A stretch of DNA of 36,088 nucleotides from Deltaproteobacteria bacterium. Lineage in GTDB: Bacteria > Desulfobacterota > Syntrophia > Syntrophales > UBA6807. Made by a program: the position numbers and the translations under genes. Of the stretch, positions 6,334 through 26,674 are shown one piece after another; within the stretch, counting starts at the first letter, position 1; the number at the start of each line of letters is the position of its first letter. The stretch covers positions 1-36,088 of the forward strand of contig DSDU01000196.1 of the NCBI GenBank assembly GCA_011056835.1, in the 5' to 3' direction. Under the pieces are notes generated by a model. That model was not told the origin of the DNA. It searched no databases and worked only from the letters and a program-made list of their open reading frames with translations.

Positions 6334-7761
6334 GTGTTATTTTTCAACAAACCAAAAACCGTTTGCGCCCGTATACTGGTCATGGTCATACTGGGCACCG
6401 TATCGCTCCCGGGTTTTTCCCATGCATCGTTCACCGTACAGGATGAAAGAAAACTGGGGCAGGAATTCTACGAGAAACTTACGGCCAAAGATCTCCTGGT
6501 TAAGAATCCTCTAGTTTTTGACTACATTGATAAAATCGGGCGTCGCGTTCTTCAGCACGCCGATGACTCACCGTTCTCATTTACCTTCTCCGTCATTAAA
6601 AGTTCAGGAATCAACGCCTTCGCAACTCCCGGCGGATACATTTACGTCTATGAGGGGCTCATCAACCTGAGTGAAAACGAGGCACAACTGGCCGGTGTCA
6701 TAGCTCACGAAATCGCTCATGCTACGTCGCGGCATATCGCCGACACCATAGAGAAATCCCAAAAAGTCAGCATGGCGACGCTCCTGGCAATTCTTGCCGG
6801 TGCCTTTCTCGGTGGAAGCGCCGAGGGAGCGGCAGCCATCACCAGTTTTTCCATGGCGGCGGCAACAAGTCTCAACCTGAAATACACACGGGATAATGAA
6901 GAGGAAGCCGACCGCAAAGGTATGCGTTACCTTACCGAATCGGGGTACGACGGGCAGGCAATGCTGGACTTTTTGAAAATCATGAGACAATTTGAATATT
7001 ATTCGAATTCAGTACCCTCTTATTTCCTCACGCATCCCGGCACAGGCGACCGTATCAGATATCTTGACGGGCTGATCCAAACGACATACAAACAGAGAGG
7101 AAAGACCAATATTATCGGTGGACTCAACAGGATAAAGACGATCCTTGTTCTTAATCAAAGAAATCTCAGCGAGAACTTGAAATTTTTTCAAAATGCCCTT
7201 AAAGAACACCCCGGAGATACCGATTTCACATACGGACTGGCGGTAGTTCAGGGAAAACTGGGGCAAACCGACGAGGCACTGAAAAATTTCTCCATTGCGC
7301 TTCGTCAATCACAGGATGATGTCGATATTCTCCGAGACCTGGGGATACTCTACTTCAACCGGGGGAAAGTGATCGAAGCCCTAGAACCTCTCAAAAAGGC
7401 GTATCATATCAATCAAAACGATCCCGAAACGATTCTGTACCTCGGAAGATCCTACGAGATGATCGGCAGTAACTTCGAGGCTCTCGACTTATATGAGAAA
7501 TTTCAGCGGGATAATCCCGACGATACGAATATTTACTACAACCTTGCCATGACCTATGGAAAAATAAATAAAACCGGAGAATCACACTATAATTTCGGGA
7601 TTTACTTCAAAAAAATAAACAGGGTCAAAAGTGCTCTTTTTCACTTTAAAGCGGCGCAAAGCTATTTTCCATCCGGTACTGAAAAAGGCAACCGCATTCG
7701 GAGTGAAATCGACTTGCTCAATCAGCCGGTATCCCCTCGGGCTCAACCCCGACGTCCATAA
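6334..7761 (+). CDS. Periplasmic M48 metalloprotease with TPR domain (BepA-like)
   Basis: This 475-residue protein begins with a signal peptide (about 1-31, hydrophobic stretch then SHA). An M48 zinc protease domain follows, with HEIAH (His125, Glu126, His129) and a third ligand in NEEEAD (about Glu191). From about residue 275 to 450 it has tetratricopeptide repeats with the alternating Ala/Leu/Tyr pattern. The same order is found in BepA (YfgC), which clears stalled LptD and BAM substrates in the periplasm. The role here is likely outer-membrane protein quality control. The start is GTG 6334 with a GGAG-type site about 11 bases upstream. It is monocistronic by position, divergent from the DUF2889 gene and followed by a 364 bp gap. 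Confidence 0.9.
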   Translation: MLFFNKPKTVCARILVMVILGTVSLPGFSHASFTVQDERKLGQEFYEKLTAKDLLVKNPLVFDYIDKIGRRVLQHADDSPFSFTFSVIKSSGINAFATPGGYIYVYEGLINLSENEAQLAGVIAHEIAHATSRHIADTIEKSQKVSMATLLAILAGAFLGGSAEGAAAITSFSMAAATSLNLKYTRDNEEEADRKGMRYLTESGYDGQAMLDFLKIMRQFEYYSNSVPSYFLTHPGTGDRIRYLDGLIQTTYKQRGKTNIIGGLNRIKTILVLNQRNLSENLKFFQNALKEHPGDTDFTYGLAVVQGKLGQTDEALKNFSIALRQSQDDVDILRDLGILYFNRGKVIEALEPLKKAYHINQNDPETILYLGRSYEMIGSNFEALDLYEKFQRDNPDDTNIYYNLAMTYGKINKTGESHYNFGIYFKKINRVKSALFHFKAAQSYFPSGTEKGNRIRSEIDLLNQPVSPRAQPRRP

Positions 7762-8125: not shown

Positions 8126-9466
8126 ATGAAACACCGTATGAGAAATAAAAAGCCGATGTTATACATGCTTGTCATCGCATGGATTACCACATCCGCACTT
8201 TCAGGCCTGCTTTTTCCTGCGTGTGCCGCACTCGGGTCGACGGTGGAGCAGCATCAATCATTAATTCCCGAGGCTCTGATCAACTTGTCGGCCGACTATG
8301 CCATTCTTGTCGACAAGAAAGCACAAAGACTTTACGCATTTCAGCGAAACCATACGGGACTGGAAAAGGTTTTTGAGGCGCCGTGCTCTACCGGAAAAAA
8401 CAGCGGTCCGAAGATGATCTCCGGGGACGGAAAAACACCAGAGGGAATCCTGTTCGCAACAAGGATATACAGCGTAAAGGAGCTTTCATCAACGTACGGA
8501 AGCATGGCCTTTCATCTCAACTATCCAAATCTTATGGACCGCAAGGAGGGTAGGAACGGCAATAATATATGGATTCACGGAACAAATAAAAAACTCCGTG
8601 CTTTCCAGTCAAACGGCTGCGTGACCCTTACAAACAAAGATATTCTCGATCTCTCGTCCTTCATAAAACTCGACGAAACGCCGATTATTATAAAGCATCA
8701 TATCAAGTGGGTTCCGGAGGACACCCTGACCGCCCTTAAATCTGAAGTGGAATCGGTACTGCATGCATGGTGGGACGCATTTAAAAAAGACGAATTGCAG
8801 GAAATGAAACGTTTGTATGATTCAGAGGAATCAATGGATCACAACAACATAAAGGCCCTCGCGGAGAAACTTACGTCATGGAAGACTTCAGGGATTGAGG
8901 TCACATGTAACCCTGCAAACATTTCCATCCTGAACCACGACCGGTATACTGTCGTAACATTCGACCAATTGATCAGATACAGGAATCAATCCTGGCAGTG
9001 CGGGCATCGCAAACTTTTTTTGAAGAAACATGATGACAGGTGGAACATCGCCGGTGACAAACTTCATTCCGCCGATGTGGACGAAACATTCACTGCCAGA
9101 CTTGAAGCGATCGATACGGCCATCGTAACCTGGGAAACAATAGAAGAGTTCATTAAACAATGGATAAACAGCTGGCAGTCCGGTGACATGCAATCGTACC
9201 GCTCATATTACGCACCGGATTTCAAGGGATACGGGATGAATCTGACACAATGGATACAATATAAAACCGGTCTGATCGGCGTAAATAAAGATCTATGCAT
9301 CACTATGGAGAATCTGAACGTCATTCCACGATCAACAACGGTAACGGCCACGTTCACCCAGCGGTATGAATCGACGGGATACAGCGACATCGGCGTAAAA
9401 AAACTGCGGCTTAAAATGATTAATAATAACTGGAAGATTGACAGGGAATCATGGAAAGCCTTTTAA
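8126..9466 (+). CDS. L,D-transpeptidase-fold enzyme with NTF2-like C-terminus (Csd6/Pgp2-like)
   Basis: This 446-residue exported protein has a hydrophobic signal segment at about 11-35. The YkuD domain spans about 55-195, with the catalytic signature IHGT (His151) and SNGC (Cys165). This fold makes 3-3 peptidoglycan cross-links or, in Helicobacter Csd6 and Campylobacter Pgp2, trims tetrapeptide stems to tripeptides. The C-terminal part looks like two NTF2-like domains (about 203-315 and 340-446), each starting with a WWDAFK or WINSWQSGD helix. Csd6 also carries an NTF2-like C-terminal domain. Together with the M99 peptidase and bactofilin downstream, this favours a cell-shape role over lipoprotein attachment. 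No clear ribosome binding site precedes ATG 8126; Met5 and Met11 are alternatives. Confidence 0.85.
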   Translation: MKHRMRNKKPMLYMLVIAWITTSALSGLLFPACAALGSTVEQHQSLIPEALINLSADYAILVDKKAQRLYAFQRNHTGLEKVFEAPCSTGKNSGPKMISGDGKTPEGILFATRIYSVKELSSTYGSMAFHLNYPNLMDRKEGRNGNNIWIHGTNKKLRAFQSNGCVTLTNKDILDLSSFIKLDETPIIIKHHIKWVPEDTLTALKSEVESVLHAWWDAFKKDELQEMKRLYDSEESMDHNNIKALAEKLTSWKTSGIEVTCNPANISILNHDRYTVVTFDQLIRYRNQSWQCGHRKLFLKKHDDRWNIAGDKLHSADVDETFTARLEAIDTAIVTWETIEEFIKQWINSWQSGDMQSYRSYYAPDFKGYGMNLTQWIQYKTGLIGVNKDLCITMENLNVIPRSTTVTATFTQRYESTGYSDIGVKKLRLKMINNNWKIDRESWKAF

Positions 9467-9494
9467 GGAAGAATCCACGGGAAACAATGCAGAG

Positions 9495-10232
9495 ATGAAT
9501 ACCGATAAAAAATCTAAGAGTTGGACTATTCTGGTTATCGGAGACCAGCAACAACTGGGGTCCTACGAAGTCAAAAAAAGCGCTCTCCGTGTTGCCGTAA
9601 TCAGCATCATCGGTGTGGTCCTGATCATTGCAGGATATCTCTGGTTTCAGAATTCAGCTCACCTGAGACTGCAGGATGATCTGCGAAAGAAGCTTGAAGC
9701 CGGGAAACAATCCATTGAAACGGTTAAGCTGGAAAACGACGCCATGGCGGATAAACTCAAAGAGTTGGAGAATGCGCTCGCAACAGCCTTCAAGGAATCA
9801 ACAGTTGAGAAAGGAGAAGCCCCCATCACGTCAACCGATGATTTCAATAGAATGTCCGTGGAAAATTTTGAAATCAACCGAGACAAATCATCAAATTCAC
9901 TTCGTTTCAAATTTCTCCTGCGAAACACTATTTCTTATAACAATCCTATTTCCGGTTATGTTTTCATCGTTCTCAAACCACAGTATCTCGATGTTTCTAC
10001 TTGGCACTGTTATCCGAATACGGTGCTTGCAGACGGGAAACCTCAAAACATCAACAGCGGAGAATCCTTCACTGTCGCCCGATTCAAAACTATCAGGGGG
10101 ATGTTCACAACGCCGCCGAAGCCGGAGGAACAATACTTTATTTCAATATGGGTATTCTCAAACAGCGGTGAACTCATGATGATAAAAGATTTCTATATAC
10201 GGGACGATGAAGGGAAAATGAATGAATCATAA
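9495..10232 (+). CDS. Single-pass membrane protein with coiled coil, cell-shape cluster
   Basis: This 245-residue protein is of no family I can name with certainty. It has a cytoplasmic N-terminus of about 30 residues containing SWTILVIGD, one transmembrane helix (about 32-50), and a heptad-like coiled coil (about 55-100, rich in Leu, Lys, Glu). A beta-rich periplasmic domain follows (about 115-235). The N-terminal peptide, helix and coiled coil resemble the N-terminus of bactofilin-linked M23 peptidases such as LmdC, but there is no LytM zinc motif. It may be the membrane link between the bactofilin and the periplasmic enzymes. ATG 9495 was preferred because an upstream in-frame ATG at 9438 lies inside the transpeptidase gene. 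Its 3' end overlaps the next gene by 11 bp. Confidence 0.75.
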   Translation: MNTDKKSKSWTILVIGDQQQLGSYEVKKSALRVAVISIIGVVLIIAGYLWFQNSAHLRLQDDLRKKLEAGKQSIETVKLENDAMADKLKELENALATAFKESTVEKGEAPITSTDDFNRMSVENFEINRDKSSNSLRFKFLLRNTISYNNPISGYVFIVLKPQYLDVSTWHCYPNTVLADGKPQNINSGESFTVARFKTIRGMFTTPPKPEEQYFISIWVFSNSGELMMIKDFYIRDDEGKMNES

Positions 10233-12057
10233 ATTACACGGCATCATAAAAGCAGTCATTGACATGGGCGTACCTGCAGCAACAATCGTTTTGTCACTGC
10301 TCATCGTGCTGGCGGGATTGGTCATTCCCGCATTTTGCAAAAACACATATCAGAATTTTTTTGCAGGAACAGACCATGAATTGAATGTTTACAGGATTAA
10401 CGGCAAGATGCCCGGTGCAACCATCCTCATAATCGGCGGAATTCAGGGAGACGAACCGGGCGGGTTTCTTTCAGCCGACCTGTACGCCGATATGCGACTG
10501 GAAAAAGGAAATCTCATCGTCGTCCCCAGGGCGAATTTCTATTCCATTCTCCTGAACCGGCGTCTGGTTAATGAAGACATGAATCGAAAGTTCACTGAAA
10601 CATCGGAACTAAACTTCGAAACTCAGGTCGTCACCATTCTCAAGGATCTCATTGCTGAAAGTGATTGCCTTTTAAATCTCCATGATGGTTCGGGATTTTA
10701 TTCCGAGACCTGGGAGAGCGAACAAAGAAACCCCCTGCGGTTCGGACAGTCCATTATCGCCGACTGCGAAGAGTATCACGATCCGAAAAGCGGGACTGTG
10801 ATAAAGCTTGGTGAAATGGCACGGAACATCGCCGAGGTAATCAACAAAAGCATCGATAACCCGGAGATCTTTTTCAGTTTTAACAACCACAGGACGAATG
10901 AGCAGACAACCCTTCATGCCGAACAGCGAAAGTCGGCAACCTATTACGCACTCTTCACATGCGGCATTCCGGCCTTCGGAATTGAAACAAGCAAGGCGCT
11001 CCCCATCGAAACAAGAATTAACCATCACAAACTGGCGGTCAACGCATTTATGAAAATATTCGATATCACGCCGGAGGTGCCCGGCATGACGGTGGAAAAA
11101 CCGATCGTAAAATATATCGTTGCACGAGTTAACGATCAGGCACCGATTGTCATAGGTGACGGTGAAACATTGAATATCGTGCCGGGTGACACGGTGAAGA
11201 TAACACACGTCGAGGGCAATTACGAAAGAGGGTACACCGTCGATATAGAGGAACACGGATCAATCAATGACGTGAACAAACCCTTCTCAATCACCAAACC
11301 GACCCGTGTCATCGTACGCAAAGACAACAATATCTGTGGAAATATCTCTATCTTTCTCAAGGGCACCAACAAGTCGATACACACCATAACGAAAAGCCCT
11401 CGAGTCGTCTATTTCAAATGCAGAATCAACCGCAAGGAATATCATTTTCCCAACGGAGCCCATGTGGACATACTGAAGGGAGATCAGATTGAATTGGTTG
11501 ACGTGTATACCATCCCCGAATCATGTCCCGGAGTGGTTGTCAATCTCAAGGGATATGTTCCCCCGGGTCCCGTGAATACCGGTGAGGACCGTGGATGGAT
11601 CGTCGACACCGAAAAAGACCTCTGGAAGCGATATTCCTTATACAATAAAGGGCGGATTTATCAGGTCGTCGTTTTGAAAGATGACAAGCACGTGATCGGC
11701 CGTCTGTTCTTTGATATGAATGAACCATCCTTTCACTACATCGTCTTTCAGCTCAACGACGGCATCAAGCGATGCTTCTTACCCGACGATACGATTTCCA
11801 TACAACAGGATGAGTCGATCAAGCTTATTGATGTAAAGACCAACGTCCCGTACAATTTCAACGTAAGCACATCGCTTACCGGAAGCGATTTCTCCGTGCC
11901 GTTTGGAATTGGGAGCGAAATCGATGGAAAAAACATACAACAGAAAGGAAACTCTTGCGACATTGTCATTTCCCGGGGAAGTTTAAAAATGGGCCGGTTA
12001 TCGCTTAACGTGACGAGTGAGGGTCTGGCCTGCTCCGATCAGAATATACGGCAGTAA
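10222..12057 (+). CDS. M99-family carboxypeptidase (Csd4-like)
   Basis: This 611-residue protein has an N-terminal membrane or signal segment (about 16-38) and a zinc carboxypeptidase domain (about 50-285). The zinc site reads GGIQGDEPGG with Gln75 and Glu78, and His154 in NLHDGSG. M14 enzymes have His-x-x-Glu here; Gln as first ligand is the known peculiarity of Helicobacter Csd4, which trims peptidoglycan tripeptides to dipeptides. The substrate-binding NEDMNRKF (117-124) and the catalytic Glu255 (FGIETSK) are present. The rest contains three similar beta units starting near 297, 396 and 505, each with a hydrophobic strand, Asn or Arg turn, and a GDxIxxxDV-like end. That is longer than Csd4. 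ATG 10222 has GAAGGGA eight bases upstream and overlaps the previous gene. Confidence 0.88.
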   Translation: MNHKLHGIIKAVIDMGVPAATIVLSLLIVLAGLVIPAFCKNTYQNFFAGTDHELNVYRINGKMPGATILIIGGIQGDEPGGFLSADLYADMRLEKGNLIVVPRANFYSILLNRRLVNEDMNRKFTETSELNFETQVVTILKDLIAESDCLLNLHDGSGFYSETWESEQRNPLRFGQSIIADCEEYHDPKSGTVIKLGEMARNIAEVINKSIDNPEIFFSFNNHRTNEQTTLHAEQRKSATYYALFTCGIPAFGIETSKALPIETRINHHKLAVNAFMKIFDITPEVPGMTVEKPIVKYIVARVNDQAPIVIGDGETLNIVPGDTVKITHVEGNYERGYTVDIEEHGSINDVNKPFSITKPTRVIVRKDNNICGNISIFLKGTNKSIHTITKSPRVVYFKCRINRKEYHFPNGAHVDILKGDQIELVDVYTIPESCPGVVVNLKGYVPPGPVNTGEDRGWIVDTEKDLWKRYSLYNKGRIYQVVVLKDDKHVIGRLFFDMNEPSFHYIVFQLNDGIKRCFLPDDTISIQQDESIKLIDVKTNVPYNFNVSTSLTGSDFSVPFGIGSEIDGKNIQQKGNSCDIVISRGSLKMGRLSLNVTSEGLACSDQNIRQ

Positions 12058-12087
12058 ACCGCAAAATCAACAACGAGGGTTAACCAC

Positions 12088-12423
12088 TTGAAAGCAAGCC
12101 CCAGAACCATTTCGATCATTAATAAAGGCTGTCACCTTGAAGGTAATTTTGATTTTAAGGGATATCTTATTGTAGCGGGAACGCTTAAGGGCACACTGAA
12201 TGCAGATACGGTTATAACGGAAGAAGGAAGTACGATAACAGCGACTATCACCTCCACATTTCTGACCGTTGCAGGTGCCTTCCGCGGAGAGATCACCACG
12301 ACCGATACCCTGACCCTTCTGAAGACATCTGATGTCAGCGCCTGTATACGGTGCGGCAAGCTCATCATCGAAGAAGGATGCACCGTAAATGGTAAAATCT
12401 GCGCTCTCCCCCGCCGATCATAA
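12088..12423 (+). CDS. Bactofilin (CcmA-like)
   Basis: This 111-residue cytoskeletal protein has the bactofilin beta-helix pattern: short repeats with Gly and small hydrophobic residues, for example KGYLIVAGTLKGTL, LTVAGAFRGEI and KLIIEEGCTVNGKI. Bactofilins polymerise without nucleotide beneath the membrane and recruit cell-wall enzymes. CcmA in Helicobacter and bactofilins in other bacteria set cell curvature. It is short, with few residues outside the core. The start is TTG 12088 with a GAGG site about 8-9 bases upstream, only 30 bp after the M99 gene, so it is very likely in the same operon. Confidence 0.92.
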   Translation: MKASPRTISIINKGCHLEGNFDFKGYLIVAGTLKGTLNADTVITEEGSTITATITSTFLTVAGAFRGEITTTDTLTLLKTSDVSACIRCGKLIIEEGCTVNGKICALPRRS

Positions 12424-13205
12424 CCGTATGAAACGCCGCAGATGGAACTCCTCAACAGCTTTTGAATGCGTGGCAGTGTTTTTCACGAGTGAACTTGTAT
12501 ATTTTTCGAATTATATATATGATACGCTCCACTTTCTGCATGCCGATACTCCCGTTTTCGGTGTAATTGATCTGTGTCAGTGCGTATCGCCGCATGCCGT
12601 GAAGGTAAGAATGATGAAGATGGTGTTGATTTAAAGCCATCGGTGGTGCGGTCATTAGAAATTTACATGGATATGCGGGAGGGGACTCTGTCTTTCCGGA
12701 CACCCCGGAAGGAACATTGTTCCTTTTTTATTTTCAACAGGCTGCGGCCGTATGAAATGCTTTGTTCGAGAGGGTCAACAAAACGATAACCCATGATGTT
12801 GCAATGTTCACCGGGATTGTGGTCATGAAGTCGTCTCTGTTCGACTGTCCGACACTTCCTCGACGATGTTTCGATCATTGACGGTCTTACCGTGGCAACA
12901 AACCGTCGGAAGGCTGTTTAAAGCGTATCACCATGACATTATTCACAGACATACAGTGATAAAATTACCGAAATCCTGGAGAGACATGGAAATGGAAATT
13001 CATAAACCGAACATGGAGTATCGTGCATTGTCTCCGGCTTTTGCCATGGGTTCCCGGCCTTTGAGCTTTAACATCTGCGGCTTTGTCGCACTCGGTGCGC
13101 TTCACGGCTGTCCCCGTGAAAACGGGGGAAGAGGAGGGAGAACGCCGAAGATATGCGTTTTTCAATAGCATTACGGGAATTGACCAAAAGAGGTACGCAC
13201 ACACC
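12424..13205. other. Long non-coding gap with terminator
   Basis: About 780 bp separate the bactofilin and the response regulator. Short frames exist (for example 12574-12789 and 12866-13168) but show no recognisable motif, and they contradict each other. One frame from ATG 12986 has a fair GGAGAG site, but its sequence looks random. The stretch holds a terminator hairpin (12709-12731). It also holds an inverted pair, GACGGT near 12891 and ACCGTC near 12912. It may contain an untranslated leader, a small RNA or decayed DNA. Confidence 0.45.
12709..12731 (+). terminator. Rho-independent terminator
   Basis: AAGGAAC (12709-12715) pairs perfectly with GTTCCTT (12719-12725) around ATT, followed by more T residues to about 12734. 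It lies 286 bp after the bactofilin stop, so it could end that operon or a small RNA encoded between. Confidence 0.55.
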
Positions 13206-14795: not shown

Positions 14796-15152
14796 GTGGC
14801 ACCATCATTATCACTTTTTGTCTATACACTTCTGGTCGTGGGAACCGCTGTTGCGATTATTCTTCTTTCCCATTTTCTCGGAAAGCGCCCCCTTACCGAC
14901 GAGAAAACAATCCCCTATGAATGCGGCATGGATCCCCTGGATACTCGGAAACACCGGTTTTCCATCAAATACTACATCGTGGCTCTTCTTTTTGTCATTT
15001 TCGATGTTGAAATTGTTTTTATCTATCTCTGGGCCATCTCGGTGCGGGACATGGGGCTGTTCGGACTCCTTGAAATGTTCATCTTCGTCGGGATTCTGCT
15101 CGTAGCGTTTGTCTATGCATGGATAAAGGGGGGACTGACATGGGAATCATAA
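14796..15152 (+). CDS. nuoA: NADH-quinone oxidoreductase subunit A
   Basis: This 118-residue membrane subunit of complex I has three predicted helices. The loop between helices 1 and 2 carries the conserved PYECGMDP motif with the reactive-state Cys, and helix 2 starts with [18 protein letters not shown], as in all NuoA. It helps seal the quinone chamber with NuoH and NuoJ. The start is GTG 14796 with TAAGGA nine bases upstream. It opens the nuo operon and overlaps nuoB by 13 bp. Confidence 0.96.
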
Positions 15153-15604
15153 AACTCGACAATGCCAACATCATACAGACCAATCTCGACAGGCTTGTCA
15201 AATGGTCCCGAAAAAACTCCCTCTGGCCACTCACGTTCGGGCTGGCCTGTTGTGCCATTGAGATGATTTCAACGGCGGCCGCCCGTTACGACATTGCCCG
15301 CTTCGGAATGGAAGTATTCCGGCCGTCACCTCGACAGGCAGACGTCATGATCGTTGCCGGTACGGTTACCAAGAAAATGGCCCCCGCTGTTAAACGTCTC
15401 TACGAACAAATGGCCGAACCGAAATGGGTCGTAGCCATGGGCGCATGTGCATGCTCGGGAGGAATCTTTCCGACCTATGCAGTTGTTCAGGGAATCGATT
15501 CAATTCTTCCGGTTGATATTTACATTCCGGGATGTCCCGTCCGTCCCGAGGCGCTACTGGACGGCCTGATGAAACTGCAAAGCAGAATTGCCCAGGAACA
15601 GTGA
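15140..15604 (+). CDS. nuoB: NADH-quinone oxidoreductase subunit B
   Basis: This 154-residue subunit carries the terminal [4Fe-4S] cluster N2, which reduces quinone. The ligands are visible as the tandem Cys37-Cys38 (GLACCAIEM), Cys103 (MGACACSGG) and Cys132 ([13 protein letters not shown]). ATG 15140 is chosen over the in-frame ATG 15119 because the AAGGGGGGA stretch lies just before it and the family begins near this point. The C-terminus is short compared with E. coli NuoB, as in many anaerobes. It contacts NuoD and NuoH at the quinone site. Confidence 0.96.
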
Positions 15605-15609
15605 TTTTT

Positions 15610-16056
15610 ATGGATATAGATATACTCAGAAAACAATTTGGAAACGGCATTCTCGATATTAGTTATTTCAGAGGTGAATGTACCGTTACGGTCGACAAAG
15701 AAATCATCGTCCCTGTATGCCGGTTTCTCAAAGAAACTGAGGGCCTGGCCTTCGATTTTCTTTCCGATTGTTGTGGTGTTGATCGTTTATCTGACCGTCC
15801 CCGTTTCTGGGTTGTTTATCACCTCTATTCAACGGCCTATAATCACCGGTTAAGACTTAAAGCAGCAGTAAACGATGACAATCCCGTCATCGACTCGGTC
15901 GTATCGGTCTGGCCGACAGCGGATTGGCATGAAAGGGAATGTTTCGATATGTTCGGCATCACCTTTTCCAATCATCCGGACATGAGACGAATTCTCATGG
16001 CCCACGACTTTGAGGGACATCCCCTGAGAAAAGATTTTCCATTGGAGGGACGATAG
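15610..16056 (+). CDS. nuoC: NADH-quinone oxidoreductase subunit C
   Basis: This 148-residue subunit of the 30 kDa family is a structural part of the connecting arm. The conserved WHERECFDMFGI and the C-terminal GHPLRKDFPLEG stretch are clear. It is a separate gene, not the NuoCD fusion of E. coli. ATG 15610 is favoured, since the frame upstream runs back into nuoB; a GTG at 15601 is a possible alternative. It lies five bases after the nuoB stop and six before nuoD. Confidence 0.95.
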   Translation: MDIDILRKQFGNGILDISYFRGECTVTVDKEIIVPVCRFLKETEGLAFDFLSDCCGVDRLSDRPRFWVVYHLYSTAYNHRLRLKAAVNDDNPVIDSVVSVWPTADWHERECFDMFGITFSNHPDMRRILMAHDFEGHPLRKDFPLEGR

Positions 16057-16061
16057 AACAC

Positions 16062-17231
16062 ATGTCGGCAGAAACAATGGCCGTAAATCTCGGCCCGCAA
16101 CATCCCAGCACCCATGGAGTTCTTCGAGTCATGCTCGAACTCGACGGGGAAATCGTCGTTAATGCAAAACCTGACATCGGATTTCTCCATCGCGGGATCG
16201 AAAAACTGGCTGAATACCGGACATATCATCAGATTATTATCCTTACCGACCGTCTGGATTATCTCGCCGCCATGAGCAACAATCTGGCCTATGTCCTTAC
16301 GGTGGAAAAACTTCTGGAGATTGAAATACCCAAACGAGCGCAGTATATCAGGATTATTCTTGCAGAACTGCAGCGCATCGCAAGTCATCTCTTCTGGCTG
16401 GGCACTCATGCCCACGATCTGGGTGCCATGACTCCTCTCTTCTATACACTCCGGGAACGGGAGACAATCATGGATATTTTCGATGCCGTTGCGGGATCAC
16501 GACTGACTCCCGGATTTATGAGAATCGGCGGTCTCGCTGCCGAGGTGGACAGGGAGATACTGCATCGAATCGACACGTTCGCCCGGTACCTTCCCGACAG
16601 AATTGACGAATACGAATCACTTTTAACGGACAACCCTATCTGGAAATCGAGAACACAGGGCGTTGGAATTCTTACCATCGATGAATGCATTGAACTGGGG
16701 GTATCGGGCCCCCTCCTTCGGGCATCAGGCCACGGACGAGACATTCGAAAAACAGAGCCCTATTCATCTTACAAAGATTTTGATTTCAACATCCCGACAG
16801 GCACACGGGGAGACGTATATGACCGCTTCCTCGTCCGGCTGGCTGAAATGAGAGAGAGTGCGCGGATCGTTCAACAGGCAGTTCAGAATCTTCCCGACGG
16901 ACCTCATATCATTCGAAAGGCACCGGGTGTTCTTCCCGACCGAGATGCTCTTGATACGGACATCTATGCCATGATTAGACACTTTCACCTGATTACGGAA
17001 GGTGTGAAACCACCCATTGGGGAAGTGTACCATTGTATCGAATCCCCGCGGGGCGAACTCGGCTTTTACCTCGTAAGTGATGGAAGCAGCAACCCATGTC
17101 GCCTACGGGTTCGCCCCCCCTCCTTTGTCAATCTCCAGAGCCTTGTCAAGATGGTGAAGGGTAAGATTCTTTCCGACGCTATTGCGGCAATATCCACTAT
17201 CGATATTGTCCTGGCCGAGGTTGATCGATGA
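16062..17231 (+). CDS. nuoD: NADH-quinone oxidoreductase subunit D
   Basis: This is a 389-residue subunit of the 49 kDa family, related to the large subunit of NiFe hydrogenases, that forms the quinone pocket with NuoB. The N-terminus has the conserved LGPQHPSTHGVLR loop, whose His contacts quinone, and LDYLAAMSNNLAY supplies the conserved Tyr region. The end, IDIVLAEVDR, matches the family C-terminus. The Cys ligands of NiFe hydrogenases are absent, as expected. GGAGGGA about 11 bases upstream supports ATG 16062. The stop overlaps an ATG at 17228, the longer but less likely start of nuoE. Confidence 0.97.
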   Translation: MSAETMAVNLGPQHPSTHGVLRVMLELDGEIVVNAKPDIGFLHRGIEKLAEYRTYHQIIILTDRLDYLAAMSNNLAYVLTVEKLLEIEIPKRAQYIRIILAELQRIASHLFWLGTHAHDLGAMTPLFYTLRERETIMDIFDAVAGSRLTPGFMRIGGLAAEVDREILHRIDTFARYLPDRIDEYESLLTDNPIWKSRTQGVGILTIDECIELGVSGPLLRASGHGRDIRKTEPYSSYKDFDFNIPTGTRGDVYDRFLVRLAEMRESARIVQQAVQNLPDGPHIIRKAPGVLPDRDALDTDIYAMIRHFHLITEGVKPPIGEVYHCIESPRGELGFYLVSDGSSNPCRLRVRPPSFVNLQSLVKMVKGKILSDAIAAISTIDIVLAEVDR

Positions 17232-17281
17232 ATCACATGAACGGCAACTGTCCTAAATTATACGAAGAAAGAGGATATGCA

Positions 17282-17788
17282 ATGAAACATGAACTGCTGA
17301 TGGAATTCACAGATAAACAGATAGAACAGGTCGATGAGTTAATCAGGAAATACCGCACAATTCCCGGTTCACTCCTTGTCGTTCTGGAGGAAGTACAGAA
17401 AGTCTGCACCTATCTCCCCATGTGCCTCCAGCGTTACGTAGCAGAAAATATGAACATTTCCCCCAGCACGGTACACGGCGTCGTCACCTTTTATTCATAT
17501 TTTTCAACCGTCCCAAAAGGGCGAAGAGTTATTAAAGTCTGCAGCGGAACGGCGTGTTATGTAAAACGTTCCCAGGACATAACCAATTCACTGCAGCAAC
17601 ACCTTCATATCAAGGATGGAGAAGTAACGGAGGACGGCGAGTACTCACTGGAAGAGGTACGCTGTCTCGGAGCGTGCGGTCTTGCCCCCGTTGTCATGAT
17701 CGGGGCGGATACCTTCGGATTGGTCGACCCTGAAAAAGCGGAAGAAATCTTATTGAAAGATAAAGTGGAGGAAAGTCATGTCGGGTGA
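17282..17788 (+). CDS. nuoE: NADH-quinone oxidoreductase subunit E (HndA-like)
   Basis: This is a 168-residue thioredoxin-fold [2Fe-2S] subunit. Cluster N1a ligands are Cys87 and Cys92 (CSGTAC), and Cys128 and Cys132 (CLGAC). The N-terminal helical part includes the usual ITPSTVHGVVTFYSYF-like segment. ATG 17282 has AAAGAGGA seven bases upstream and is preferred over the ATG at 17228 that overlaps nuoD. It belongs with the next two genes as a diaphorase module. The same subunit type is HndA or HydC in hydrogenases. Confidence 0.93.
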   Translation: MKHELLMEFTDKQIEQVDELIRKYRTIPGSLLVVLEEVQKVCTYLPMCLQRYVAENMNISPSTVHGVVTFYSYFSTVPKGRRVIKVCSGTACYVKRSQDITNSLQQHLHIKDGEVTEDGEYSLEEVRCLGACGLAPVVMIGADTFGLVDPEKAEEILLKDKVEESHVG

Positions 17789-18170
17789 AGAACTGAACAA
17801 AATTAAAGGTAACTATATCGAAGAACGAATGAAGGAAGCCGATCATGGTGTGGTCACGGTACTGGTTCACATGGGAACCTGCGGCATTTCCGCAGGCGCC
17901 ACGAAGATATTCTCGGCACTTCAACAGGAAATTGATCGATTGTCACTCAACAATATCAGGCTCAAAACTACAGGCTGTGCCGGCCTGTGCAGTCAGGAAC
18001 CGATGATTACTGTGGAAGTTCCGGGGCAGCCTGCCGTCCGATATGGAACACTCAATGCCAAAAAAGTAATTGAAATCTTCTACAGTCATGTCCTGGGAGG
18101 TCATGTACGCTCGGAACACGCCATCAGCACCGGCCTGGAAAAACCACAGAAACGAGTCATAGGAGCGTAA
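17778..18170 (+). CDS. HndB-like [2Fe-2S] thioredoxin-fold protein inside the nuo operon
   Basis: This 130-residue protein is not a standard complex I subunit. It matches the HndB pattern of NADP-reducing hydrogenases and the N-terminal part of some HydB proteins: a VHMGTCGISAGA motif, then TTGCAGLCSQEP and VEVPGQPAVRYG. Only three cysteines are present (Cys35, Cys67, Cys71), one fewer than a normal [2Fe-2S] site, which is also a feature I recall for HndB-type proteins. It starts 11 bp inside the nuoE end, with GGAGGA upstream, and ends two bases before nuoF, so it is translated with them. It probably forms part of the NADH-oxidising arm, as a structural or electron-transfer subunit. Confidence 0.8.
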   Translation: MSGEELNKIKGNYIEERMKEADHGVVTVLVHMGTCGISAGATKIFSALQQEIDRLSLNNIRLKTTGCAGLCSQEPMITVEVPGQPAVRYGTLNAKKVIEIFYSHVLGGHVRSEHAISTGLEKPQKRVIGA

Positions 18171-18171
18171 G

Positions 18172-19959
18172 GTGATTTCAACCGTTGGCACCATAGCATA
18201 TTGTTCCAATAAAAAATGTAAGTACAGGAGTGATTTCGACATGAAGCGATTGCTGTCGGAAGCTCTTGCCGAATTGGGATATGGCGGCCGGATATCCCTG
18301 GTCGAGACGGATTGTCTCGTATCCTGCCGCCAGGGTCCCTCCATGATGTTTCTCCCCGGTGGGAAAGTTTATCAGATCCTGACCACGGAAAATTTCACCC
18401 AGATCGTGGGAGATCTGATTCATAAAACGGAACATCCGTCGTCTCCCCTTTTTAACGCGCCGCAGACGGAAGAAGAAATACCAGACATCGAGGACATCGA
18501 TTTCTTCAGACAGCAGCAACTGATTGTCTTGAGAAACCGAGGACATATCGATGCCGAAAGCATTGAGGAATACATTGCTCATGATGGATACGGTGCGCTG
18601 CATGCGGCGCTGACAACCTTGACCCCCGAGGCGGTTATCGAAACAATCAAGGACTCAGGTCTTCGCGGCCGAGGTGGCGCCGGATTCCCAACAGGCCTCA
18701 AATGGGAAGAAACGGCCAAGTATGATCGTCATACCAAATATGTTATCTGCAACGGCGATGAGGGCGACCCCGGAGCCTTTATGGATCGAAGCATTATGGA
18801 ATCGGATCCTCATGCAGTAATTGAAGGAATGATCATATGCGGTTATGCCACGGGTTCGACTGAAGGATATATTTATGTCCGGGCCGAATATCCTTTGGCC
18901 ATCACCATGCTCCAGAAAGCCATCGATACCGCGCGGGATCGGGGATTGCTGGGTCGGAACATCATGGGATCGGAATTCGATTTCGACATTCATATCTATC
19001 CGGGCGCCGGAGCATTTGTCTGCGGTGAATCGACGGCCCTCATGTTTTCAATTCAAGGAAAACGCGGAATGCCGCGAATCAAACCACCACGGTCATCTGA
19101 AGCGGGTCTTTGGGGACAGCCGACCTGTCTGAACAACGTGGAGACCTTTGCCAACATTCCCCGGATTATCCTGAACGGCGCCGATTGGTTCAAGGCAATC
19201 GGCACCGAAGACAGCACGGGAACCAAGGTATTTTCTCTCACCGGGGCCGTCAAAAACGTCGGCCTTGTGGAAGTGCCCATGGGAACCGATCTGAAGACAT
19301 TAATTTTCGATATCGGTGGCGGCATAAGAGGAAACGGAAAATTTAAAGCGGTTCAGCTCGGCGGACCATCCGGTGGCTGCCTCACAGAGCAGCATCTGAA
19401 CATCCCCGTTACGTTTGACTCACTCCAGTCTGAAGGGGCCATGATGGGGTCCGGCGGGGTCGTTGTCATGGACGATACGAACTGCATGGTTGATGTGGCC
19501 CGTTTTTTCACTCAGTTCTGCGTCGACGAATCGTGCGGCAAATGCGTTCCCTGCCGCACCGGCCTTACGGTTATGCTTGAAATCCTTGACAGGATTGTTA
19601 CCGGCGAGGGCAAACCTGAAGACCTTGAGGAACTGGAATACCTGGCAAATCATATCGCCGCCACATCACACTGCGGTTTGGGGCAGGCTGCACCGAATCC
19701 CGTTCTGAGCACGTTGCGGTATTTCCGCCATGAATATGAAGCTCATATTGTTGAAAAGCGCTGTCCCGCCCTGGTCTGTACAAATCTGATTCGGTTCGAC
19801 ATCGATGAAAATGCCTGCAAGCGATGCGGACTCTGCGCACGGGTATGCCCCGCCGATGCTATCGTTTGGGAAAAGAAAGCACTGCCTGTTTTAATAAAAG
19901 ACAAATGCATCCGATGCAAATCCTGCATCAGGGTGTGTAAATTCGGAGCGATTTCGTAA
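18172..19959 (+). CDS. nuoF: NADH-quinone oxidoreductase subunit F, HndC/HydB type
   Basis: This is a 595-residue flavoprotein, about 150 longer than E. coli NuoF because of domains at both ends. The N-terminal thioredoxin-like [2Fe-2S] domain has Cys11, Cys16, Cys48 and Cys52. The core holds the NAD/FMN loop GRGGAGFPTGLKW, the NGDEGDPGAFMDR stretch and the N3 cluster ligands ESCGKCVPCR with HCGLGQ. The C-terminal domain (about 540-595) has two [4Fe-4S] motifs, CKRCGLCARVC and CIRCKSCIRVC. This layout is that of HydB and HndC in bifurcating or NADP-reducing hydrogenases. GTG 18172 follows AGGAG by six bases. The NAD-binding residues resemble the HydB family, so cofactor choice should be tested. 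Confidence 0.94.
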   Translation: MISTVGTIAYCSNKKCKYRSDFDMKRLLSEALAELGYGGRISLVETDCLVSCRQGPSMMFLPGGKVYQILTTENFTQIVGDLIHKTEHPSSPLFNAPQTEEEIPDIEDIDFFRQQQLIVLRNRGHIDAESIEEYIAHDGYGALHAALTTLTPEAVIETIKDSGLRGRGGAGFPTGLKWEETAKYDRHTKYVICNGDEGDPGAFMDRSIMESDPHAVIEGMIICGYATGSTEGYIYVRAEYPLAITMLQKAIDTARDRGLLGRNIMGSEFDFDIHIYPGAGAFVCGESTALMFSIQGKRGMPRIKPPRSSEAGLWGQPTCLNNVETFANIPRIILNGADWFKAIGTEDSTGTKVFSLTGAVKNVGLVEVPMGTDLKTLIFDIGGGIRGNGKFKAVQLGGPSGGCLTEQHLNIPVTFDSLQSEGAMMGSGGVVVMDDTNCMVDVARFFTQFCVDESCGKCVPCRTGLTVMLEILDRIVTGEGKPEDLEELEYLANHIAATSHCGLGQAAPNPVLSTLRYFRHEYEAHIVEKRCPALVCTNLIRFDIDENACKRCGLCARVCPADAIVWEKKALPVLIKDKCIRCKSCIRVCKFGAIS

Positions 19960-19980
19960 CGACATTTAAACGGAAACATT

Positions 19981-22425
19981 ATGATGATATCTTTAATAGT
20001 TGATGGAAAGGAAGTTCAGGTAGAACGGGGCGCAACGATTCTTGATGCCGCCCGGAAAGCCGGAGTGTACATCCCCACACTGTGTCACGACAGCAGGATA
20101 ACACCTTACGGGTCATGCAGAATGTGTGTCGTGGAGGATCGAAACCGCCGGGGACGGCTTATCCCGTCATGTTTTACACCGGCACGAAACGGCATGGACA
20201 TCATCACGGAAACGCCGGAAATCACTGCCGCACGAAGGACCCAGCTTCAGCTCATACTGACCAACCATCCTCTCGACTGTCCCGTATGCGACAAAGCAGG
20301 CGAATGTGCTCTTCAGGATCTTGTCATACGGTACGATATAGCGGAATCTCCGTATCGCATTCCAAAGAAAGATCGTGGTGTCGACCTAGTCTCCCCGCTG
20401 ATTGAACGTAATATGAACCGCTGTATACTTTGCGGGCGTTGTGTCAGAATCTGTAACGAGCTTCAAGGAACCCATGAGATCGATTTCATACATCGCGGAA
20501 TGGAAACAACTATCGGTACCGACGGCAACCGTCCGCTGGACTGTGACTTCTGCGGGCAGTGCATTTCCACCTGCCCGGTAGGCGCATTGACCGACACCAT
20601 GTTCAAGGATACTACCCGTGTCTGGAAACTGGAACAGAACGAAACCGCATGCAGTCACTGCGGTCTGGCGTGCCCCATCGTTCTCAATACGGAGAACAGT
20701 GAAATCCGGCGCGTGACTCCTCCCGTTTCCGACCAGGGTGACATCGGAAATCTCTGCGTCAGAGGTCGCTTCGGCTGGGTATCCTATGCTCCTCCCGGCC
20801 GGCTCTCCACACCCCGCATCACGGTAAACGGTAAGCAGCAACAAGCATCATGGCCGGATGCGATCAATATGGCTGCACAATCTTTAAACAGGATTATTGA
20901 TGAATACGGCGGCGATGCGTGTGCCGTCCTGTCATCGGACGCCTGGACGACCGAAGAAGCATATGCCTACCAGAAATGGTGCCGAAAGATCCTTGGCACG
21001 CACACCATGGGATCAATCGCTGCCGAGGGATACCGTCAGATTGTCACAATACTCGTGGAGCAACTCGGAGAAACCTGGAACAAAGGAACACTTGCGGATT
21101 TCGAAAACGCCGATGCTATTGTCGTTATCGGCGGTGGTGCCGCCGAACTCCATCCGGTTTTGAAACCGATGATCAACTCCTTTCTAAAAGGAAACGAAAA
21201 GGAACTGGTTGTTATCTCATCGTGGAGAGATTTCTTTATCGAACGGGCAACCCTTCCTATCGAAATTAATCCCGAATTGCGAGAGACATTCTTCTCAGCG
21301 CTGAGAGAAGCTCTTCTGGGAAAAACAAAACACCACCGGTCCGATGTCAACGACTTCGGTATTGACTGTTCCGCTCTTGCACAATTCGTTTCGTTGTTGC
21401 ATCAGGACAAAAATATTTTCCTGCTTATTGTACCCTATCTATTCGGCGACAATGAACAGCTCGGTCAGCTGGCTGCCTGCCTCAGCAGTCGGGTTAAGGC
21501 CATTCTGCCCCTTGGGGGACAGTTCAACAGCCGGGGAGCCTTGTTTCATGCCGGATTCTCACCGATACTGCAACCCGGGGGAGTACCCGCTCACGGTTCT
21601 CAGCGAGGAATCGCTCATGCCGATGAACTGTTCAAGGCAATAGAGGACGGCGTGATACGCGCCCTGTACATCCTTGGCGATGATCCCCTGGAGGAGTACC
21701 CCGATCCGGAACGAATCAAGAAACTTCTCGAGAAACTGGATCTCCTTATCTATCAGAGTCCCTACGAAGGCGCTGTCGCATCAATGGCTCATATAGTCCT
21801 CCCTTCGGCGACGGTCCCGGAAAAAGAAGGAAGCGTTGTATCATTGTTCGGGGAGTCGAAAAACCTTCGTTCCATTCTGCCCATGCCCGACGGTACCAAA
21901 AGTGATCTCCGAATCCTTCAGGAACTTGTCAAAGCAATGAAACATGTCGGCACTCCCTACAGGGAAGAGATTATTTGTCGCGAACTTACCGAACTGAAAA
22001 GTGATCCTGTTGCCGGTGAGACGGCTTCGCAATCTCAGGATGCTCACTTGGAATTCACATGGAAGGAAGAAACAATCAACAGAAAATCGCAGGATTATCC
22101 CCTTACGATGATCCCGATCCCGTCACTTTTCGGAGACGGTATGGTTTCAAGAAACAGTCCCCAACTTAACGAACTTCGAAACGGTATCAGTATTCTGATG
22201 AACCCTGATGATTTCGAGGAACGATCCTTCAAAAAGAAAGACATGGTGCGCATCACGACGCCCTTCGGATCGGCCCGGGGCAGCGTCGACTATTCGCTTA
22301 ACGTTCGAAAGGGAACAATTCTGACGGCCAACATTACAGGAAATGCAGAAGGACTTTCACTTTTCAGAGAACACAGCCGGATCGTGCCGGCCAAACTTAC
22401 AAGGATTGAAGATCATGATTGTTAA
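19981..22425 (+). CDS. nuoG: NADH-quinone oxidoreductase subunit G
   Basis: This is an 814-residue iron-sulfur subunit. The N-terminus has the [2Fe-2S] domain (CHDSRITPYGSCRMC), the His-ligated N5 motif HPLDCPVCDKAGEC and a two-cluster ferredoxin part (CILCGRCVRIC, CDFCGQCISTC). A further CSHCGLAC with a later Cys (NLCVRG) suggests cluster N7. The rest is a molybdopterin-oxidoreductase-like domain with its C-terminal barrel (about 700-814), as in complex I without a cofactor. There is no [FeFe] hydrogenase H-cluster motif, so it is not HndD. It carries electrons from NuoF to NuoI. Start ATG 19981 or 19984. The end overlaps nuoH by 11 bp. Confidence 0.95.
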   Translation: MMISLIVDGKEVQVERGATILDAARKAGVYIPTLCHDSRITPYGSCRMCVVEDRNRRGRLIPSCFTPARNGMDIITETPEITAARRTQLQLILTNHPLDCPVCDKAGECALQDLVIRYDIAESPYRIPKKDRGVDLVSPLIERNMNRCILCGRCVRICNELQGTHEIDFIHRGMETTIGTDGNRPLDCDFCGQCISTCPVGALTDTMFKDTTRVWKLEQNETACSHCGLACPIVLNTENSEIRRVTPPVSDQGDIGNLCVRGRFGWVSYAPPGRLSTPRITVNGKQQQASWPDAINMAAQSLNRIIDEYGGDACAVLSSDAWTTEEAYAYQKWCRKILGTHTMGSIAAEGYRQIVTILVEQLGETWNKGTLADFENADAIVVIGGGAAELHPVLKPMINSFLKGNEKELVVISSWRDFFIERATLPIEINPELRETFFSALREALLGKTKHHRSDVNDFGIDCSALAQFVSLLHQDKNIFLLIVPYLFGDNEQLGQLAACLSSRVKAILPLGGQFNSRGALFHAGFSPILQPGGVPAHGSQRGIAHADELFKAIEDGVIRALYILGDDPLEEYPDPERIKKLLEKLDLLIYQSPYEGAVASMAHIVLPSATVPEKEGSVVSLFGESKNLRSILPMPDGTKSDLRILQELVKAMKHVGTPYREEIICRELTELKSDPVAGETASQSQDAHLEFTWKEETINRKSQDYPLTMIPIPSLFGDGMVSRNSPQLNELRNGISILMNPDDFEERSFKKKDMVRITTPFGSARGSVDYSLNVRKGTILTANITGNAEGLSLFREHSRIVPAKLTRIEDHDC

Positions 22426-23371
22426 CATCATCGGAGAGTTGCTCAAAATCATTATCATCTTCTCGGTCATAATGGGAATTGTGGCCTATATGACGCTCAT
22501 GGAACGACGTTTCCTGGGATTCTTTCAGCTACGCCTGGGGCCCAACCGTGTCGGTCCCGGGGGGCTCCTGCAGCCCATTGCAGACGGCATCAAATTGCTC
22601 TTCAAAGAGGATATGACGGTCCTTCACGCCCGTTCATTTTACTTCATACTCGCCCCGATCATATCGTTTGTTGCAGTCCTCCTCTGCTTTGCCGTTATTC
22701 CATTCTCCGGCACGATGTATATCACCGATTTATCCGTGGCGGTCCTCTATCTCATGGCCATTTCATCCGCCGGAGTTTACGGCGTTCTGTTGGGAGGCTG
22801 GTCATCGAACAATAAATATTCAACACTCGGAGCATACAGGGCGGCAGCTCAGATGATCAGTTATGAGATACCCATGGCCCTGGCCCTGGCAGGAGTCCTC
22901 ATTCTAAGCGGCTCCATGAGTCTCGTGGATATCGTGAATGCACAGAAGGGACTGTGGTATATCGTTATGCAGCCGGTGGGCTTTCTGATTTTTTTCATTG
23001 CCGTCTCGGCGGAGACAAACCGCACCCCCTTCGATTTCCTTGAATGTGAAAACGAACTCGTCGCCGGGTACCAGACTGAATATTCATCCATGAAATTCGG
23101 AATGTTTTACATGGCGGAATACGCCCATATTCTCTTGGCGTCTTGTCTCATTACCGTCTTTTTTCTCGGGGGCTGGAACGGACCGGTGTTGCCCGCTCTG
23201 GTTTGGTTTTTTGCCAAGGTTTTCGCTGTCTTCTTTCTTTTCGTATGGATCAGGGCCACCTATCCAAGACTGCGATACGATCAGCTTATGGCCTTCTCCT
23301 GGAAGTTCCTGCTCCCGCTTGCTTTTTTAAATCTCATGATATCGGCCGTACTGGTCGTTGCCCTGCACTAA
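22415..23371 (+). CDS. nuoH: NADH-quinone oxidoreductase subunit H
   Basis: This 318-residue membrane subunit has about eight helices and links the quinone chamber to the proton pumps. Hallmarks are the ERRFLGFFQLRLGPNRVGP loop near the N-terminus and AETNRTPFDF with ENELVAGYQTEYSSMKF, which holds the acidic residues of the E-channel. Start ATG 22415 overlaps the nuoG end and has AAGGA nine bases upstream. The longer frame from 22343 lies inside nuoG. Confidence 0.96.
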   Translation: MIVNIIGELLKIIIIFSVIMGIVAYMTLMERRFLGFFQLRLGPNRVGPGGLLQPIADGIKLLFKEDMTVLHARSFYFILAPIISFVAVLLCFAVIPFSGTMYITDLSVAVLYLMAISSAGVYGVLLGGWSSNNKYSTLGAYRAAAQMISYEIPMALALAGVLILSGSMSLVDIVNAQKGLWYIVMQPVGFLIFFIAVSAETNRTPFDFLECENELVAGYQTEYSSMKFGMFYMAEYAHILLASCLITVFFLGGWNGPVLPALVWFFAKVFAVFFLFVWIRATYPRLRYDQLMAFSWKFLLPLAFLNLMISAVLVVALH

Positions 23372-23388
23372 AATCAGAGGGAGAAACG

Positions 23389-23814
23389 ATGATTAAACCA
23401 TTACTTGACGGTTTGAAAACAACGCTGAATCACTTTTTCAGGAAGCCGATTACACTTCAATACCCTGAAGAAAAATGGTCGCCTCCTGAGAGGTTCAGGG
23501 GTCAGCCCGTTCTTATCCGCAATGATGAAGGGGAACCACGATGTGTAGCCTGCGGACTCTGTGAAAAGATCTGTCCCTGCGGCTGTATAACCGTCCATCC
23601 TCACACAGGAGCCGATGGCCGCCGTCAACTGAAAAGATACACTATCGACCTCCTTCGGTGCTGTTTCTGCGGTCTCTGCGTGGAGTCCTGTCCCATGGCA
23701 GCGATTAAGATGAGCTCCCGCTATGAACTGGCTAACGACCGTAAGGAAGCGTGTGTCCTCCATGAACAGGATCTCATGGAAAAGATCGGCCCAGTCAGCG
23801 ATGTGAGCGGCTGA
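23389..23814 (+). CDS. nuoI: NADH-quinone oxidoreductase subunit I
   Basis: This 141-residue subunit has two [4Fe-4S] clusters (N6a and N6b) with motifs CVACGLCEKIC and CCFCGLCVESC. It passes electrons from NuoG to NuoB. It is compact, lacking the longer tail seen in some relatives. ATG 23389 follows a GAGGGAG site; the upstream frame from 23143 overlaps nuoH and is not credible. Confidence 0.95.
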   Translation: MIKPLLDGLKTTLNHFFRKPITLQYPEEKWSPPERFRGQPVLIRNDEGEPRCVACGLCEKICPCGCITVHPHTGADGRRQLKRYTIDLLRCCFCGLCVESCPMAAIKMSSRYELANDRKEACVLHEQDLMEKIGPVSDVSG

Positions 23815-23844
23815 TACATTATTATTAGTTATAAAGGATATTTC

Positions 23845-24372
23845 ATGGAAGCAATAACACAACAGATAATATTTTGGATATTAGGCATTACCACCATTAC
23901 GGCGGCCATCGGAGTCATCGCGGCATCAAATACAATCAACAGCGTCATGTCTCTCCTGGTGGTTATGCTTGCCGCAGCGGGATTCTATATGCTCATGGGC
24001 GCACCGGTAGTTGCCCTTTTTCAGATTATTATCTATGTCGGAGCCGTCCTTGTACTGTTCCTCTTTATCATTATGCTGCTGAATCCTGATGCAACGGGAC
24101 TTTCGATGTCTCGAAAGCTCTCCGTATGGATGGCCGGCATCGTATCCGTCGGCATGACGGTTGTCATTGGATGGATTTTCTGGCAATCGGCAACGCAGAC
24201 AAATATGCAGAATGTTATGAAGAACCACGTATGCTCGTGCACGATTCACGATATCTCCGTAGTCCTTTTCAGCCGCCACCTGCTTATCTTTGAATTAACT
24301 TCTCTCCTTCTTCTGGTGGCGGCTGTCGGGGCTCTTCTCATGACTAAAAAGACTCGGGAGGATCGGTCATAA
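23845..24372 (+). CDS. nuoJ: NADH-quinone oxidoreductase subunit J
   Basis: This is a 175-residue membrane subunit with five helices. Helix 3 has the conserved Gly/Tyr pattern IIYVGAVLVLFLFIIMLL, where a pi-bulge gates the proton path in known structures. It starts after an AAGGA site and its TAA shares one base with the nuoK ATG, which implies coupling. Confidence 0.95.
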   Translation: MEAITQQIIFWILGITTITAAIGVIAASNTINSVMSLLVVMLAAAGFYMLMGAPVVALFQIIIYVGAVLVLFLFIIMLLNPDATGLSMSRKLSVWMAGIVSVGMTVVIGWIFWQSATQTNMQNVMKNHVCSCTIHDISVVLFSRHLLIFELTSLLLLVAAVGALLMTKKTREDRS

Positions 24373-24674
24373 TGGGCATATATCATTTTTTTGCGATAGG
24401 AATTATTCTGTTTTCAATCGGATTGATCGGATTCATCCTTCGAAACAATGTGATCATTATCCTCATGTCGGTGGAATTGATGCTGAATGCCGTCAACCTG
24501 CTCTTCGTTGCATTCTCCCGGTATTTGTATGCAAATCCCGATGGTCAGATTTATGTCTTCATCATCATGACCGTCGCAGCCGCCGAAGTGGCCGTGGGAC
24601 TCGCCATCATCGTTGCTCTGTACCGGCGGTTTGCCACGCTTGACGTGAGTAAAATCAATCAACTGAAAGGGTAA
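24372..24674 (+). CDS. nuoK: NADH-quinone oxidoreductase subunit K
   Basis: This is a 100-residue subunit of the usual length with three helices. It has the key glutamates in helix 2 (LMSVELMLNAVNL) and helix 3 (AAAEVAVGLAI) that carry protons. It resembles MrpC antiporter subunits but is placed by its neighbours nuoJ and nuoL. Confidence 0.96.
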   Translation: MGIYHFFAIGIILFSIGLIGFILRNNVIIILMSVELMLNAVNLLFVAFSRYLYANPDGQIYVFIIMTVAAAEVAVGLAIIVALYRRFATLDVSKINQLKG

Positions 24675-24677
24675 ACA

Positions 24678-26600: not shown

Positions 26601-26674
26601 ACGGCTATTAATGAAACCGTTTAAGAATAAACCAAAAAACCGCCGGGTAAAAACGTATTAAGGATGTAATCAGA

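Follow-up and report, generated by a model that had tools for sequence, protein, structure and literature searches.

The DNA analysed here (the window) is a stretch of 36,088 nucleotides that comprises one whole contig (C12) of a 3.4-Mb deltaproteobacterial genome assembled in 261 contigs. According to its list of open reading frames, four genes on the forward strand, spanning positions 8126 to 12423, encode a YkuD protein, an unnamed membrane protein (referred to as X), an M99 metallo-carboxypeptidase and a bactofilin (Table 1). The YkuD and X frames overlap by 29 bases and those of X and M99 by 11 bases, and the M99 and bactofilin genes are 30 bases apart. All Pfam matches exceed the curated cut-offs (YkuD 1.2e-19 and Cds6_C 7.5e-20; Peptidase_M99 and Bactofilin as in Table 1). 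Compared with L100, the nearest relative (a Deltaproteobacteria MAG whose M99 is 71% identical), the dN/dS ratio is 0.14 for the YkuD protein, 0.10 for X, 0.12 for M99 and 0.13 for the bactofilin, and such values of about 0.10-0.15 indicate that purifying selection keeps all four genes. Because of these low ratios, and of an identical gene order in dozens of genomes, the four-gene cluster is not a product of chance. The tight row of four genes proposed in the original prediction is thus confirmed by reading frames, Pfam domains and dN/dS, and the homology to Csd6, Csd4 and CcmA-type bactofilins that it had suggested is borne out by the Pfam scores and by matches in the PDB.

Table 1. Coordinates of the operon genes, their domains and further features; positions are those of the window unless preceded by a locus number.
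Feature	Coordinates	Strand	Evidence
M48 protease with TPR repeats, BepA type	6334-7761
YkuD-type LD-carboxypeptidase-like protein, 446 aa, signal peptide, two tandem NTF2-like domains	8126-9466	+	Pfam, PDB match, AlphaFold
YkuD catalytic domain, residues 57-189, with H151 and C165	8294-8692	+	Pfam, alignment of relatives
First NTF2-like domain, residues 198-314	8717-9067	+	AlphaFold secondary structure
Second NTF2-like domain, residues 322-445, with Y414 and W443	9089-9460	+	AlphaFold; comparison with Bd1075 (PMC8938487)
X, bitopic membrane protein, 264 aa from TTG, proposed adaptor	9438-10232	+	AlphaFold; conserved across 34 first-search loci
X beta-hairpin on the cytoplasmic side, residues 28-46, candidate tail for binding bactofilin	9519-9575	+	AlphaFold; profile match to M23 N-termini; hairpin proteins beside bactofilins
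X transmembrane helix and coiled coil, residues 47-120	9576-9797	+	AlphaFold
X periplasmic beta-sandwich, residues 139-253	9852-10196	+	AlphaFold
M99 metallo-carboxypeptidase, Csd4 type, 611 aa, C-terminal beta domains	10222-12057	+	Pfam PF17033 3.3e-35; PDB 4Q6M
M99 catalytic domain	10414-11067	+	Pfam
Bactofilin, 111 aa, TTG start behind GAGGG, without canonical MF-K membrane-targeting N-terminus	12088-12423	+	Pfam PF04519 2.6e-20
Terminator-like stem-loop, 3' of operon	12707-12727	+	Consensus scan only
Complex I (nuo) operon	14796-29663
M99-bactofilin single frame, Olavius algarvensis Delta 4 symbiont MAG	L124:6971-9154
Hairpin proteins of about 100 residues	L218:1277-1576, L219:1991-2293, L220:1973-2305, L221:2010-2312, L223:1155-1457, L224:1127-1435		Genome search with X profile
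YkuD-NTF2 protein of about 800 residues, Desulfovibrio-like genome	L235:4092-6494

The gene directly 5' of the operon encodes an M48/TPR protease that resembles BepA, with a score far under the BepA equivalog cut-off. It was rejected as an operon member, since L100 is the only other locus in which it adjoins the operon. On the 3' side, a sigma-54 response regulator is followed by the complex I operon, which includes NuoE, NuoF and NuoG-like subunits. The consensus scan that located a stem-loop behind the operon counted as many terminator-like stem-loops in the region as in shuffled sequences. A PADLOC scan of X and the other proteins revealed no link to defence.

The YkuD protein displays, in its AlphaFold model (mean pLDDT 91), a YkuD domain and two NTF2-like domains. 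The NTF2-like C-terminus that had been predicted is therefore present, but there are two such domains in tandem, the second of which had been missed. The catalytic residues H151 and C165 of the YkuD domain are each found in 102 of 103 relatives. With this His and Cys and an NTF2-like domain behind them, the protein fits by sequence into the family of YkuD-NTF2 LD-carboxypeptidases (Csd6, Pgp2, Bd1075). The proposed likeness to Csd6 holds at the level of the family; judged by sequence and by model, the protein is nearer to Bd1075 of Bdellovibrio, since the PDB sequence matches rank Bd1075 (7O21, 8e-44) before Csd6 (4XZZ, 4e-20) and Pgp2 (1e-15), and a Foldseek search with the model returned the same ranking with 7O21 first. 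Moreover, Y414 and W443 align with Y274 and W303 of Bd1075, both of which are required for its targeting to the convex face, W303 being reported as missing from Csd6 and Pgp2 (PMC8938487). As W443 is kept in 89 and Y414 in 83 of the 103 relatives, this targeting-residue feature is not confined to Bdellovibrio. Desulfovibrio-like genomes encode YkuD-NTF2 proteins of about 800 residues (L235 and similar loci), followed by a divergent X, with M99 located elsewhere.

The M99 protein belongs to the M99/Csd4 family, with a Peptidase_M99 score of 122 bits (cut-off 27), the QxxE...H motif and the general-base Glu, and its best relation in the PDB is Csd4 itself (4Q6M, E 1e-27). The residues that bind the metal or act as general base (Q75, E78, H154 and E255, the counterparts of Q46, E49, H128 and E222 in Csd4; PMC4220969) are present in 115-116 of 116 relatives, the sole exception being one gap. 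The substrate residues R86, N93 and R94 of Csd4 correspond to the conserved R114, N121 and R122, and H126, which contacts meso-DAP in Csd4, is replaced by N152. M99 and bactofilin share a single frame of 728 residues in the Olavius symbiont MAG; this fusion of a periplasmic enzyme with a cytoplasmic filament protein would result from the loss of a stop codon or from an assembly error.

X matches no Pfam or NCBIfam model, and 30 X relatives share no Pfam match. Its AlphaFold model (31 sequences, mean pLDDT 84) displays two strands (28-34 and 40-46), a helix (47-120) and a beta-sandwich (139-253), for which a PDB fold search returned nothing significant (weak beta-sandwich matches, best E 2e-3). 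An alternative ATG start is located at position 9495. Near-full-length X was found in roughly 15% of the sampled phylum genomes. The hairpin and transmembrane segment are related to the N-termini of M23 peptidases: hhalign of the two profiles gave a probability of 93%, the top non-X match among 2442 ORF N-termini was an M23 peptidase encoded in the window's own genome (E 3.6e-4), and a genome search with the X hairpin-TM profile again returned this peptidase (G000:C49, E 1.2e-5). With the transmembrane segment left out, the best M23 match of a hairpin-only HMM had an E value of 0.6, so that the signal of kinship comes partly from the transmembrane helix, the hairpin being too short for a significant score by itself. 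The AlphaFold model and the profile match thus give X the cytoplasmic beta-hairpin, transmembrane helix and coiled coil of LmdC-type proteins, with a beta-sandwich in place of the C-terminal M23 peptidase domain; Csd5 in turn carries a periplasmic SH3 domain, whereas X has no Pfam SH3 match, a beta-sandwich of 115 residues, and no detected kinship to Csd5. By its sequence X lies outside the LmdC family, for want of the M23 domain, and outside Csd5, for want of the SH3 domain. The original prediction had rightly seen a membrane protein with a coiled coil but underrated the role of X, which is probably an adaptor. The genome search with the X profile also led to unnamed proteins of about 100 residues that comprise a hairpin, one transmembrane helix and a coiled coil. 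Their genes directly adjoin those of bactofilins with canonical MF-K-like starts, and they resemble an LmdC minus its peptidase.

The bactofilin scores 72.9 bits against a family cut-off of 27.9. It starts KASPRTISIINKG, in place of the MFSKKKK-like membrane-targeting N-terminus that is common in bactofilins without defining them. Bactofilins encoded 3' of M99 display a K/S-rich start running into SIIDKGL or similar, most of them without an MFSKKKK-like start; those encoded upstream (L082-L084, L149, L170 and L172) mostly have one, a reading based on the sequences themselves, the pattern count being loose. The commonest N-terminal motif of Thermodesulfobacteriota bactofilins differs from the membrane-binding one, and a membrane client is able to replace the targeting sequence of a bactofilin (PMC12448750); by analogy, X may stand in for the sequence missing here. 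In L170 and L172, both Nitrospirae MAGs, two adjacent bactofilin genes lie upstream of X and M99, with no YkuD gene found nearby.

In a sample drawn evenly from the phylum (297 genomes), M99 was found in 57, Cds6_C in 74 and bactofilin in 191, and 44 of the 50 M99-bearing genomes examined contain a bactofilin. Neighbourhoods were searched with iterated profiles for the M99 loci of this sample and for 80 further loci from named genomes. The cluster behaves as the unit that had been predicted and is conserved in relatives, so that the outcome named as refuting the prediction did not occur: the non-redundant operon-type M99 loci with full context (n=81, a set that leans toward relatives of the window's M99) include 42 with all four genes, 24 with YkuD-X-M99, six with X-M99-bactofilin and nine others. 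In the phylum sample only (56 loci, some of them close to contig ends), all four genes were found in 15 (the window included), the trio YkuD-X-M99 in 19, M99 alone in 17 and other combinations in five. Calling the module 'self-contained' was too strong, as the bactofilin is not adjacent in 24 of 66 YkuD-X-M99 loci, about a third, and the genome also encodes a second bactofilin and five M23 peptidases. A bactofilin accompanies 48 of 72 loci with X and two of nine without it (Fisher p 0.024, phylogeny ignored). M99 genes with the scores nearest to Helicobacter Csd4 are solitary, for example in Desulfovibrio-like genomes. The unit recurs near ruvCAB (30 loci), purB or rplM-rpsI; its gene order varies while membership is kept, with the bactofilin upstream in L082-L084, L170 and L172, and the two Nitrospirae MAGs have the unit without a YkuD gene. 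M99 is encoded by 32 of 149 genomes in the order and by three of six in the family. The pairwise distances of the operon genes track one another and those of the neighbouring RuvB (correlation 0.63-0.82), suggesting that inheritance was mostly vertical and that losses were numerous. A recent mobile acquisition, considered because M99 was absent from the handful of genomes of the same order in the first sample, is unsupported by these numbers. A search of the open-access literature returned no published report of the four-gene cluster, so that an earlier mention elsewhere is possible.

We consider it fairly probable that the operon encodes a bactofilin-scaffolded peptidoglycan-trimming module, in which X links the enzymes to the scaffold and which shapes the cell. 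In Hyphomonas and Rhodospirillum, the M23 peptidase LmdC has a cytoplasmic tail to which the bactofilin BacA binds, and recruitment is abolished when the conserved beta-hairpin of this tail is altered (PMC10945521). Cytoplasmic bactofilin polymers would similarly bind the beta-hairpin of X, which would cross the inner membrane and hold or position both enzymes with its periplasmic beta-sandwich. The Bd1075/Csd6-like enzyme would cut off the fourth residue of the stem peptide, converting tetra- to tripeptides, and M99 would next remove meso-DAP to leave dipeptides, as Pgp2 feeds Pgp1 in Campylobacter, where the tripeptides produced by Pgp2 are the substrate of Pgp1 (PMC3961634). Since both enzymes are of the Pgp2 and Pgp1 kinds, the operon would encode two successive cuts together with a filament and a protein that may connect the enzymes with it. 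Sequence and model suggest that X is probably the adaptor that places the two enzymes on the bactofilin scaffold. We infer that trimming on one side would lower cross-linking there and so set the shape, most likely curvature, to which a local loss of cross-linkable stem peptides is likely to lead. Curvature is plausible and fits one named strain, the vibrio-shaped Desulfocarbo indianensis SCBM (PMC4559730), whose contig LBMP01000003.1 (L176) carries the whole operon; the helical alternative of the original prediction found no support here.

The operon combines parts of the bactofilin-LmdC module and of the Helicobacter/Campylobacter shape pathway. As in the BacA-LmdC system of Hyphomonas neptunium and Rhodospirillum rubrum (PMC10945521), a bactofilin lies beside a bitopic protein with hairpin, transmembrane helix and coiled coil, and wall hydrolysis would be recruited to one cell side; LmdC, however, is itself an endopeptidase, whereas the enzymes of the operon are separate periplasmic carboxypeptidases. 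Helicobacter pylori has the corresponding NTF2 LD-carboxypeptidase (Csd6), M99 DL-carboxypeptidase (Csd4), bactofilin (CcmA) and bitopic protein (Csd5, whose short cytoplasmic tail contacts CcmA; PMC9448923), but here the set forms one operon and the YkuD protein has two NTF2 domains. Bd1075 of Bdellovibrio bacteriovorus (7O21; PMC8938487), the top match in sequence and structure, lacks both the extra NTF2-like domain and an operon with M99, X and bactofilin. Pgp2 and Pgp1 of Campylobacter jejuni are of the same two enzyme types and act sequentially, as is predicted here, although Pgp2 is only 17-18% identical to the YkuD protein (Foldseek). We know of no X in Campylobacter.

It is quite unlikely that the trimming unit is real with X partnering the YkuD enzyme only, as a membrane anchor or chaperone, and with the bactofilin tied to it by co-expression alone. 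Such a division would fit the Csd6-like gene that adjoins X in most of its locations, including Desulfovibrio-like genomes with M99 and bactofilin elsewhere, the gene fusions in L082, L083, L084 and L149, where the X beta-sandwich forms the C-terminal end of the YkuD protein, and the less constant adjacency of the bactofilin. On the other hand, X and bactofilin are paired without M99 in L230, L232 and L233, in the latter two also without YkuD; M23, bactofilin and X stand in one row in L222; a gene with an M23 motif and a hairpin lies between X and bactofilin in L231; and the X hairpin is akin to the bactofilin-binding tail of LmdC. That the four genes share no functional link and merely descend together on one chromosome segment is very improbable: the correlation with RuvB does indicate largely vertical inheritance, but the unit recurs in several unrelated contexts, with gene overlaps, gene fusions and a varied order at constant membership.

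A scaffolded trimming module could also serve ends other than curvature, such as upkeep of the wall in general or its local remodelling on behalf of other envelope machines (recycling, assembly of flagella or pili, control of LD cross-links, or DpaA/YafK-like release of peptidoglycan-linked protein). We regard this as unlikely. The YkuD domain has a weak NCBIfam match to DpaA (3.8e-9, far under the cut-off), DpaA is among the Foldseek matches, and the carriers are mostly MAGs without a known cell shape; against this, the NTF2 domains, Y414 and W443 group the YkuD protein with Bd1075, Csd6 and Pgp2, all of them shape enzymes, M99 and bactofilin are likewise shape factors in Helicobacter and Campylobacter, and Desulfocarbo indianensis is vibrio-shaped.

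If the adaptor reading is extended to the hairpin proteins at large, the hairpin and transmembrane helix of X would represent a general docking plug for bactofilins with exchangeable cargo, namely the M23 peptidase of LmdC, the beta-sandwich of X, by which carboxypeptidases would be recruited, or the bare coiled coil of the 100-residue proteins. In that case X would be the founding member of a new family of adaptors, through which a bactofilin filament controls the trimming of stem peptides, as well as the substitute for the bactofilin's own membrane-targeting sequence. To this wider proposal we give slightly less than an even chance. According to the Bd1075 study, no mechanism was known for targeting to one lateral wall (PMC8938487), and how an inner cytoskeleton places outer wall enzymes on one side of the cell is the question that the operon addresses. 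With a bactofilin, a candidate membrane-spanning adaptor and trimming enzymes for two successive steps encoded as one conserved unit, it makes this question testable, offers a likely function for the unnamed family X, and provides a link at the sequence level between bactofilin-M23 modules and the carboxypeptidase pathway of Helicobacter and Campylobacter.
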